Shown here: in pieces, positions 45,283 to 47,918 of the stretch
How positions within the stretch are numbered: position 1 is the stretch's first letter
Layout: each line of letters starts with the position of its first letter
DNA from: Marinobacter profundi
GTDB lineage: Bacteria; Pseudomonadota; Gammaproteobacteria; Pseudomonadales; Oleiphilaceae
DNA length: 64,000 bases
Assembly (NCBI RefSeq): GCF_002744715.1
Contig: NZ_KZ319367.1
Span: forward strand, 1 to 64,000
Direction of reading: 5' to 3'
Notes under the pieces: model-generated
Database searches by the model: none
Told to the model about the DNA's origin: nothing
The model's input: only the letters and a program-made list of their open reading frames with translations
Position numbers and translations under genes: made by a program

Positions 45283-46314
45283 ATGCAGGAACTTCGCGAT
45301 GCGGGAGTGATGTTGCGCCTGATCTACCAGGCCATGAAACGCAAGGGAATTGATACAGACGCAATTTTTGCCCGGTTGGGCGTTGATGAAAGCTACGTGT
45401 ACATGGATCAGTTGCGCACTCCCCACAGCGCGCAGCTGTATTTCTGGCAGGTGGTTGAAGACGTGTCCGGTGACCCGGATATCGGCCTGCACCTGGGCCA
45501 GCTGCTCCCTACCTACAAGGGACAGGTACTGGAATACCTGTTTCTCAGCAGCCCCACCTTCGGTGAGGGGTTACGCCGTGCGCAGAACTATCAGCGCTTG
45601 CTGAGTGATGCTGCCAATACCGATTTCGTGATCGAGGGTGACGAAGCGTGCATGATTCTTGACGCTGCCTCCGAGGAAGTCAGTCGGCTTCGCCATTTCA
45701 ACGAATGCTTTGTGCAAGGGCTGGTAACCTTCTTCAAGTCCATCACTGAAGAGGAATTCCATCCTTCCCGGGTCGAGTTCGAGCACAGTCGTGAGCAGAA
45801 CCGGGAGCATGTGGCCGAGGTTCTTGGCTGTGACGTGGTTTTTGATGCGCCTGAGAACCGGCTGTATTTCCCGGCCAGTCTGTTGTCCCATCCATCGCCC
45901 CACGCTGAGCCGGAGCTTCTCGACCTTCACGAGCGCTTTGCCAGCGAACAGGTCGCCCGGCTGGAGAAGAAAGACATTGTCGGCCAGGTAGAGCGGATCG
46001 TTGCCGAGCTGCTGGACAGCGGGGAAGTGACCCTGGATGCGGTGGCTGAGCGGCTCGACATCAAGCCCCGCACGCTCCGGACGCGGCTGACGGAGGCGGA
46101 AACCAGCTTTAACCAGGTGCTGGCAGATTTCCGCTATCGCCTGGCCCGGCAGTTGCTGGCCACCACCGATGAGTCTATTGACGAGATTGTGTATCTGACC
46201 GGGTTCTCCGAGCCCAGTACCTTCTACCGTGCATTCAAACGGTGGTCGGGGATGACACCGATCGAGTATCGGAAAACCTCCCAGGGTAAGGACGCCGTGG
46301 TGGACGCGATGTAA
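45283..46314 (+). CDS. AraC-family transcriptional regulator
   Basis: A 343-residue regulator of the OruR/ArgR-like AraC subgroup. A long N-terminal ligand domain (PF12625-type, about 1-220) is followed by a C-terminal double HTH (VTLDAVAERLDIKPRTLRTR, then ELTEAETSF-like and DEIVYLTGFSEPSTFYRAFK). ATG 45283 is preferred; an in-frame start at 45232 would extend it by 17 residues. Members often sense fatty acids or amino acids. Divergent from the MaoC gene, which is the likely target. Confidence 0.87.
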   Translation: MQELRDAGVMLRLIYQAMKRKGIDTDAIFARLGVDESYVYMDQLRTPHSAQLYFWQVVEDVSGDPDIGLHLGQLLPTYKGQVLEYLFLSSPTFGEGLRRAQNYQRLLSDAANTDFVIEGDEACMILDAASEEVSRLRHFNECFVQGLVTFFKSITEEEFHPSRVEFEHSREQNREHVAEVLGCDVVFDAPENRLYFPASLLSHPSPHAEPELLDLHERFASEQVARLEKKDIVGQVERIVAELLDSGEVTLDAVAERLDIKPRTLRTRLTEAETSFNQVLADFRYRLARQLLATTDESIDEIVYLTGFSEPSTFYRAFKRWSGMTPIEYRKTSQGKDAVVDAM

Positions 46315-46363
46315 TCGCGCCCACCACGATTGGCGCCTGCGGCAAATAACTTTGAAAAAAGCG

Positions 46364-46391
46364 TTGACATGCCCGCAGTCCTCTTTATAAT
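46364..46391 (+). promoter_or_regulatory. sigma-70 promoter of the tRNA-Asp gene
   Basis: TTGACA (46364-46369), 16-bp spacer, TATAAT (46386-46391), followed by a GC-rich discriminator (GCGCCCTCG) typical of stringently controlled stable-RNA promoters. It lies 62 bp before the tRNA 5' end. Confidence 0.85.
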
Positions 46392-46453
46392 GCGCCCTCG
46401 TTGTCACCGAGCAATCAACGACAGGTTGCTCGCAAAAAGGTGATGACCCGCGC

Positions 46454-46530
46454 GGAGCGGTAGTTCAGTTGGTTAGAATACCGGCCTGTCACGCCGGGGG
46501 TCGCGGGTTCGAGTCCCGTCCGCTCCGCCA
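46454..46530 (+). tRNA. tRNA-Asp (anticodon GTC)
   Basis: A 77-nt gene. The acceptor stem is GGAGCGG paired with CCGCTCC, the D-loop AGTTCAGTTGGTTAGA, the anticodon loop CCTGTCACG (anticodon GTC), and the T-loop GGGTTCGAGTCCCG. An encoded CCA ends the gene. It is a single tRNA with its own strong promoter upstream. Confidence 0.97.
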
Positions 46531-46612
46531 TTTCCTCCCTTCTTTGCCAATCCCTGAACAGTTTCTCTTCGAATCTTTTCGCTCTGAACACCTTCTAGCC
46601 CGTTATTTCAAG

Positions 46613-46664
46613 CTGTCATCCCGGTCGGGAAATCGTTGTCATCAACCTGTCACCAAACTGTCAC
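46613..46664 (+). promoter_or_regulatory. tandem PhoB-type (Pho box) repeats
   Basis: Three direct 7-mers lie at exact 11-bp periods: TTGTCAT (46636-46642), CTGTCAC (46647-46653) and CTGTCAC (46658-46664). They are separated by CAAC and CAAA, matching the Pho box pattern CTGTCAT-N4-CTGTCAT. A further CTGTCAT lies at 46613-46619, 23 bp before the first. The array ends about 60 bp before a 28-codon ORF. A weak -10 such as CATGTT (46673-46678) is correctly placed for PhoB activation. Confidence 0.7.
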
Positions 46665-46685
46665 CCGTGGGACATGTTCCGGTTG

Positions 46686-46720
46686 CACACTATCCGTGTG
46701 ATTTTGATAGGGATAGTGTG
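46686..46720 (+). promoter_or_regulatory. leader hairpin overlapping the start region of the small ORF
   Basis: CACACTATCC (46686-46695) is perfectly inverted as GGATAGTGTG (46711-46720) with a 15-nt loop. The 3' arm holds the only Shine-Dalgarno-like sequence (AGGGATAG) before the ATG at 46723. If transcription starts near 46685, the mRNA would begin with this stem and hide its ribosome-binding site. Alternatively it is a protein-binding operator. Confidence 0.5.
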
Positions 46721-46722
46721 TG

Positions 46723-46809
46723 ATGCTTGATTACGAAGAAGAACTCATCGAGTTCCAGTTGGAAGATTTCGATGACGATGAAGGTTATGACGACGGGATG
46801 GAGCTGTAA
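46723..46809 (+). CDS. 28-residue highly acidic small protein
   Basis: The ORF starts at ATG 46723 and encodes a 28-residue peptide (MLDYEEELIEFQLEDFDDDE, then GYDDGMEL). It has 14 Asp/Glu and no Lys, Arg or His, so the net charge is near -14. An amphipathic acidic helix is likely. It is preceded by a Shine-Dalgarno-like AGGG within a hairpin and by a Pho box array, which together argue that it is expressed. I know no family for it. It could be a DNA-mimic, an inhibitor or a cation-binding microprotein. It lies in the 335-bp gap between tRNA-Asp and a convergent AraC gene. Confidence 0.5.
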   Translation: MLDYEEELIEFQLEDFDDDEGYDDGMEL

Positions 46810-46865
46810 TAGCGGCTACCACCCGATTCGCGGGGCACTGACAGTTGCGGTGCCGGATTATCCGG

Positions 46866-47918
46866 TTAAGCGCCTGGAAAGTTAATAGAAAGCACCCTGC
46901 GATGTTCTCCCGGGCTGAGCCCGAACCAGCGCCGGTATGCCTTATGAAACGCCGCCGGGCCGGAAAATCCCAGTAACCAGGCAATTTCGCTCAGCGAGCT
47001 TCCGGTTTCCCGGATATAGGCAATTGCCAGATCCCTCCTTGCTTCGTCCAGAAGCTCCCTGAATCCGGTGTTTTCCGCGGCCAGTTGCCGTTGCAGGGTC
47101 CAGGGCGCAAGCCCCAGTTTTGCCGCCACGGTTGCCAGTTCCGGCGTCTCGCCTTGCAGCAGGGGTGGCAGCATGTCCTTGATCCGATCTCCGGTGGTCC
47201 AGCCACGGCGAATTTTCTTCAGTTCCCGATCACATTGCGCGCACAGTTCAGTGAACATCGCAGGTTGTGCCTGCAGCGATGGCAGGTCGGCAACCCGGGG
47301 AGCCAGCAGCAGACCATTGCGATCAGCCCCGAAGGTGACCGGGCACTGGAACCATTCCTCAAACCTGGTTTCCAGACCCTGGGCAGGGTACTCGATCAGC
47401 ACCCGTTCAAGTACCTGCTGCTGCCCGGTGAAAATCCTCAATAACTGTGTCCAGGCCGACAGTACCGAGTCGACCACAAAAAAATTGTACTGGTTGTAAG
47501 GCCGAATGGAGTAGAAGTCCGCCTGTAAGCGGTTGTCGCTGATAACCGGGATGCCGCGGCTGTTTCGGCTGGTCAGTGGCGAGTAACGGATCAGGGTGGC
47601 CAGGGCCTCGCCGGCGCTTGCTGCGCACTGGGCGGCGAGCCCGGCCAGACCGGCATCGACTGGCCGGGTCAGTTCCGCGATCATCAGCCCCAGTGCCCGG
47701 TTCCCGGTCAGCTCGATGGCCGCCTGTCCCAGCCGCATGTAGCGGGGAATGCTGATCCGTGCCTGGGGCGTGGCGAGGAAGCTGTCGTCCAGGCCGAACT
47801 GGCCGAGCCAGGGGGCGGGGTCGTGCTGCATTGCCGCCACAGCGCGGGCCATCACGGCGACGTAGAGTACGCTGATATCGCCGAGGCTGTTGCGTTGAGG
47901 GCGCGGGCTGGCGGTCAT
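46866..47918 (-). CDS. AraC-family transcriptional regulator
   Basis: A 350-residue regulator. The N-terminal PF12625-type domain (about 20-210) contains the family pattern LGLMIAELTRPVDAGLAGLA. The C-terminal AraC HTH is PELATVAAKLGLAPWTLQRQ, then SSLSEIAWLLGFSGPAAFHK and AYRRWFGLSPGEHRR. It is transcribed divergently from fadH, with a 142-bp gap that contains AGATAA/TTATCT half-sites at 47952-47970. It probably senses a fatty acid or related ligand and controls fadH. This inference rests on the context. Confidence 0.87.
   Translation of the reverse strand: MTASPRPQRNSLGDISVLYVAVMARAVAAMQHDPAPWLGQFGLDDSFLATPQARISIPRYMRLGQAAIELTGNRALGLMIAELTRPVDAGLAGLAAQCAASAGEALATLIRYSPLTSRNSRGIPVISDNRLQADFYSIRPYNQYNFFVVDSVLSAWTQLLRIFTGQQQVLERVLIEYPAQGLETRFEEWFQCPVTFGADRNGLLLAPRVADLPSLQAQPAMFTELCAQCDRELKKIRRGWTTGDRIKDMLPPLLQGETPELATVAAKLGLAPWTLQRQLAAENTGFRELLDEARRDLAIAYIRETGSSLSEIAWLLGFSGPAAFHKAYRRWFGLSPGEHRRVLSINFPGA

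Follow-up and report, generated by a model that had tools for sequence, protein, structure and literature searches.

The Pho regulon promoters that offer the closest comparison for the locus described here are those of the pstS-like and phoB genes of Marinobacter, together with the E. coli phoA/pstS type. Binding sites of OmpR-family regulators are generally direct repeats of 10-11 bp. Tiny products of stress regulons that act by partner binding are represented by MgtS, MgrB and SgrT, and the DUF1127 proteins are basic. Small DUF1127 proteins are reported to act on PhoR (PMC12501420). In the 64-kb stretch of Marinobacter DNA analysed here (the window), one interval is, as judged from its sequence, quite probably a PhoB-transcribed unit whose product, a soluble acidic microprotein, would bind a partner in the cell. 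Its features are as follows.

46454 to 46530, forward strand: tRNA-Asp (GTC), the conserved upstream neighbour (ARAGORN).
46613 to 46619, forward strand: outlying half-site CTGTCAT, 23 bp upstream of the first repeat of the array (read from the sequence).
46636 to 46664, forward strand: putative Pho box array TTGTCAT, CTGTCAC, CTGTCAC (11-bp steps, pattern counts and matrix).
46673 to 46680, forward strand: presumed -10 region (placed by the -10 offset rule of the family).
46682 to 46724, forward strand: 5' UTR stem-loop with the perfect core 46686-46695/46711-46720, overlapping the SD-like sequence and the start codon (folding).
46723 to 46809 (stop codon included), forward strand: 28-codon acidic microprotein gene (ATG ORF, homologues and codon selection).
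46866 to 47918, reverse strand: convergent AraC-family regulator gene (Pfam PF12625 and PF12833 above cut-off).

The first-pass annotation, made from the letters of the window alone, had reported three TGTCA-type 7-mers at 11 bp with a CTGTCAT 23 bp upstream, a 28-codon ORF in which 14 residues are Asp or Glu and none is basic, and a 10-bp stem, perfectly paired, at 46686-46695/46711-46720, and all three were found in the sequence as described. The repeats begin at 46636 (TTGTCAT), 46647 (CTGTCAC) and 46658 (CTGTCAC), in steps of exactly 11 bp. The exact TGTCA triple has a single occurrence in the window; with two mismatches allowed, two were found vs 0.07 expected, both inside the array. The pattern TGTCAYN5TGTCAY occurs three times in the 4.03-Mb genome (once for the reversed-pattern control), and two of the three are this array. 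The best matrix site of the window was 46647-46664 (p 0.005 vs shuffles). The window's own -10 element is weak, with TGTTCC at the 10-bp offset and CATGTT 2 bp earlier, a poor hexamer match. Further upstream, at 46364-46391, the tRNA-Asp gene is preceded by a promoter that matches the sigma-70 consensus perfectly (TTGACA, 16 nt, TATAAT).

A DNA search of 97 genomes matched 16 besides the window's own, all at query positions 185-287, around the ORF. With a profile made from 16 members, a homologue was found in 66 of 124 Marinobacter genomes (58 had no match); a wider profile detected one in 87 of 163 genomes of the family (8 of 16 genera), and a still wider profile in 51 of 390 genomes drawn from across the order (16 of 142 genera), with one match per genome in the genus, family and order searches. 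In the class sample, two of 369 matched, both from the same order, and no homologue was found outside it. The microprotein family was also present in Pseudomonas (profile scan of contigs; at least 12 confirmed among at least 592 stretches). Eighteen more matches (17 of the 21 order-search matches without a locus, and one from the family search) were fetched from families f1, f20, f28, f37 and f38, many of them weak (E up to 0.004). The lengths of the homologues across the searches were 26-33 aa. Note that many loci are near relatives and that the locus counts are not independent. Three alignments were used: A1 with 16 of 17 loci (L015 dropped), A2 from which L032, L057 and L058 were dropped (3 of 56 distinct proteins), and A3 with 42 chosen members.

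The product of the window ORF (46723-46809) is MLDYEEELIEFQLEDFDDDEGYDDGMEL, of 28 aa, with 14 D/E and no K, R or H. Selection was evaluated with the 49 distinct 28-codon CDS of Marinobacter (1176 pairs). The pN/pS ratio was 0.25 over the 1176 pairs and 0.12 in the 151 close pairs, indicating purifying selection, with values of 1.9 and 1.1 for the other two frames; variation was concentrated at the third codon positions (entropy of 1.27 vs 0.50 and 0.45). Among the 90 distinct proteins from 106 loci, the length was 26-29 or 33 aa and the number of acidic residues was 11-16; K, R or H was present in 33 of the 90, so that the absence of basic residues noted in the first-pass annotation holds for the window ORF but not for the family as a whole. 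By eye, an ATG start with an SD-like sequence ahead was seen in 18/18 of the additional homologues, and an AGGAG-like sequence precedes the start in most homologues, being weak in the window. The comparative evidence, with purifying selection on the codons, strongly supports the microprotein ORF as a real protein-coding gene, in agreement with the small protein first proposed. A chance ORF was ruled out by the purifying selection on codons. The ORF was also excluded as a leader peptide of the downstream gene, which runs convergently both here and at 100 of 111 loci.

PhoB was found above the curated cut-off in all 12 genomes tested, including that of the window (G000), and a second PhoB-like regulator, below the cut-off, in 11 of the 12. 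PstS-like genes were found in a repeat PstS search of 12 genomes. In the genomes tested for PhoB, the best box had at least 10 of 12 matches (two TGTCAY half-sites at 11 bp) in 31 of 32 pstS-like/phoB loci, where the box was the best site in 480 bp with no shuffle control and most pstS-like matches were below the family cut-off. A box matrix trained solely on the pstS-like/phoB sites of the genus gave p<0.05 within 130 bp of the microprotein gene in 49/66 loci of the genus, 14/20 of the other genera of the family and 10/20 of the order. Of 70 distinct significant sites, 49 had TAnnnT exactly 10 bp after the box, and at any other offset from 0 to 15 there were at most two. With the composite model (box and -10 element, 300 bp scanned), p<=0.05 was obtained in 97 of 111 loci (55/66 in the genus, 20/20 in the other genera of the family, 8/10 in f20, 10/10 in f38 and 4/5 of the named Pseudomonas loci) and in 16 of the 18 further loci, 113 of 129 in total; p<=0.01 was obtained in 80 of the 111 and 14 of the 18. 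The misses in the genus (p>0.05, 11 of 66 loci) belong mainly to one Marinobacter clade with degenerate repeats, and the composite matches of L162-L165 are AT-rich and unconvincing. The Pho-type sites of f38, located 174-249 bp upstream of the gene at 9 of 10 loci, were missed by the 130-bp box-only scan and found by the composite scan. For L063, the nearest relative of the window by protein, the 130-bp box-only scan gave nothing significant (p 0.28); a single good half-site with a weak -10 element lies at -140, and the composite scan scores p 0.003.

As a control, 200 bp downstream of the tRNA were scanned at 30 of the 39 tRNA-Asp sites of 20 of the 58 Marinobacter genomes that lack the ORF. 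The composite model gave one match in 30 at p<=0.05 and none at 0.01. At 16 of the 30 sites a tRNA-Val follows, and 8 have an AraC homologue 44-152 bp behind the tRNA, which is the orthologous place; none of these 8 had a composite match at p<=0.05, so that box and ORF are absent together in the places compared. The matrix and composite results strongly support PhoB-type phosphate control of the microprotein gene, and the control that the first-pass annotation had read from the repeats alone gains support from the pstS-like/phoB boxes of the genus, the fixed -10 spacing and the order-wide composite promoter. A separate observation concerns f38, in which a perfect sigma-54 -24/-12 element (TGGCAYRN4WTGCW) lies between the distal Pho-type site and the gene in 9 of 13 loci (8 of 10 from the order search and one of 3 further loci, namely L179, L181, L183, L185-L188, L190 and L232; L175 has one mismatch). 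This element suggests a second nutrient input.

The stem of the window leader is perfect at 46686-46695/46711-46720, and the pairing extends further. The 146-nt segment of the window folds at -45.5 kcal/mol (z -2.9), and the final 45 nt with the ATG at -23.3 kcal/mol (z -5.4); in the leader fold, pairing takes in four of the six bases of the weak SD-like stretch as well as two bases of the start codon. For 64 distinct Marinobacter leaders, the mean z was -1.6, and the mean unpaired probability of the SD was 0.236 vs 0.426 with the upstream part shuffled (Wilcoxon 1.9e-9, for loci that are not independent). No trend of SD occlusion was found in 20 leaders from other genera of the family and 19 of the order. 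Covariation of the stem was modest, with few compensatory changes, and no consensus fold emerged when leaders of a second clade were aligned. We take the leader stem to be a lineage-specific Marinobacter feature, probably of mRNA stability or translation, outside the conserved core. The first-pass annotation had made the hairpin part of the unit and had proposed that relatives be searched for the same order of repeats, hairpin and ORF with synonymous changes in the ORF; the repeats, the ORF and its low pN/pS (0.25) were recovered there, but the hairpin was a Marinobacter trend only.

The adjacent tRNA-Asp gene, named in the first-pass annotation, is a conserved neighbour, but not throughout. 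It lies on the same strand within 500 bp upstream in 60/66 loci of the genus, and within 500 bp upstream in 18/20 of the other genera of the family, 8/10 of f38 and 3/10 of f20; in the fetched DNA of the further loci it was upstream in 10 of 18. Of the five named Pseudomonas loci, four have it at a distance of 1.2-2.9 kb, and none was seen within 4 kb of the fifth. The tRNA-Asp was rejected as a needed partner on these Pseudomonas loci, so that its proximity elsewhere need not have a function. Downstream, 100 of 111 loci have a convergent AraC homologue within 1.4 kb (62/66 in the genus, 14/20 in the other genera of the family, 10/10 in f20, 9/10 in f38 and 5/5 of the named Pseudomonas loci). 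The AraC gene was also found without the ORF and therefore does not need the microprotein; conversely, four Marinobacter loci (L047, L048, L055 and L065) have no convergent AraC neighbour and keep the ORF and the Pho-type site. In L047 and L055 the microprotein gene adjoins a peptidase-like gene (named by eye). In L179, L183 and L145 the AraC frame overlaps the microprotein 3' end on the opposite strand, where the antisense of the acidic codons encodes a serine-rich C-terminus of the AraC protein. The gene beyond AraC has flavin oxidoreductase domains (PF00724 and PF07992), and we take it to be 2,4-dienoyl-CoA reductase-like. P. aeruginosa PA3094 may be the AraC-type gene that stands convergent at this locus. 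ChIP-seq of the PA3094 regulator and a re-analysis of PhoB ChIP-seq are described in PMC13086498.

In the alignments, the conserved start of the proteins consists of M-x-[DE]-Y and L8 among mostly acidic residues; the middle is acidic, and DDAxE[LM] forms the end. AlphaFold2 predicted a helix at residues 3-12 of a 33-residue member with low confidence (pLDDT 65, pTM 0.25), and neither a signal peptide nor a membrane stretch was seen by eye. The C-termini of the window ORF and its homologues are often [TVMIF]-E-[LMI]; ends of this type resemble PDZ-domain ligands, and could mark a protease or PDZ partner. Among 21 members there was no Pfam match and no NCBIfam family above the cut-off (one weak match, E 0.039, in one member), in line with the view of the first-pass annotation that the protein belongs to no known family. 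A search of solved structures gave a chance-level match only (E 0.28). A known RNA family was rejected, as Rfam found the tRNA alone in 46300-47000. The literature searched, which included only a minority of subscription journals, contained nothing recognisable as an acidic microprotein family and none of four peptide strings of this family; the matching passages of PMC10433244, PMC13086498 and PMC12506140 do not discuss the microprotein gene, and a term search of PMC4513871 returned no occurrence. We file it as a new family, by Pfam, NCBIfam, Rfam and the literature, of a known kind, i.e., a stress-regulon microprotein behind a classical Pho promoter.

In the explanation that we prefer, the interval would be a complete small transcription unit, with a PhoB-type promoter (11-bp repeats followed after 10 bp by a -10 element), a short leader and a single gene. 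When phosphate is limiting, phosphorylated PhoB would bring RNA polymerase to the array; the Marinobacter transcript would begin at or close to the stem-loop covering the ribosome-binding site, which would probably stabilise the mRNA or limit translation. The microprotein, whose N-terminal segment (DYEEELIE...) is probably helical, whose middle is acidic and whose C-terminus carries DDAxE[LM], would most likely bind a basic or phosphate-binding partner in phosphate-starved cells. Coding, conservation, the Pho-type promoter and the Marinobacter leader stem are borne out by the sequences compared; from these we infer PhoB binding, induction and translation of the microprotein gene in vivo, and the identity of the partner and the effect of binding it are speculative. 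That the microprotein acts by a polyanion or phosphate-mimic mode is possible, with our judgement leaning against it. A wider version, in which an order-wide new Pho output consists of a polyanionic microprotein that mimics phosphate, polyphosphate or nucleic acid and occupies a basic site (e.g., of a Pho signalling or polyphosphate-binding protein), with translation gated in Marinobacter by the 5'-terminal hairpin and with a sigma-54 promoter, gained by one family, that could couple another nutrient signal, appears unlikely as a whole.

The short unit with its strong leader stem could also be read as a gene whose working product is the RNA, i.e., a small RNA induced by PhoB that might pair as antisense with the 3' end of the AraC transcript, with the ORF secondary or the transcript dual-function; the convergent AraC gene is close by in 100 of 111 loci, and its frame overlaps the ORF 3' end in L179, L183 and L145. 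However, the four AraC-less copies keep ORF and box, the stem covering the SD has no trend outside Marinobacter and Rfam recognised only the tRNA. Selection also acts at the amino-acid level, with the third positions variable, and we regard this reading as improbable.

Doubt may also be directed at the regulator, since repeats of 10-11 bp are general among OmpR-family regulators and a second PhoB-like regulator was detected below the cut-off in 11 of 12 genomes; the 11-bp repeats would then bind another member of that family. Against this, the half-sites, their spacing and the -10 offset are those of the pstS-like/phoB promoters of the genus. The microprotein sites are also found by a model that had pstS-like/phoB sites alone as its training set, and a different regulator is very improbable. 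Short ORFs and pentamers are common enough for an acid-rich random ORF to fall near random TGTCA repeats, but both are conserved across the order and the ORF is under purifying selection; chance, already refuted on this ground, has a negligible probability.

The PhoB-transcribed microprotein gene that we favour looks like a component of the bacterial response to low phosphate that has been overlooked. The Pho response is much studied, yet a gene with two of the genome's three exact tandem TGTCAY boxes has no Pfam or NCBIfam family, perhaps because its product has 28 residues. Its function is directly testable because of its order-wide spread (including Pseudomonas), stable regulation and small size. 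The promoters resemble the pstS-like/phoB promoters of Marinobacter in having a pair of TGT(C/A)AY-like half-sites 11 bp apart and mostly a -10-like hexamer 10 bp after the box, and the window site differs in that its half-sites are three, contiguous, and its -10 is weak; unlike the pstS-like/phoB genes, the product is a microprotein and not a transporter, phosphatase or regulator. As with MgtS, MgrB and SgrT, it would be a tiny stress-regulon product, with partner binding proposed, but its sequence is unrelated to theirs, and it is polyanionic with no membrane stretch by eye. It differs from the basic DUF1127 proteins in being acidic and without a Pfam match; it is like those described in PMC12501420 in being a very small bacterial protein tied to phosphate metabolism.
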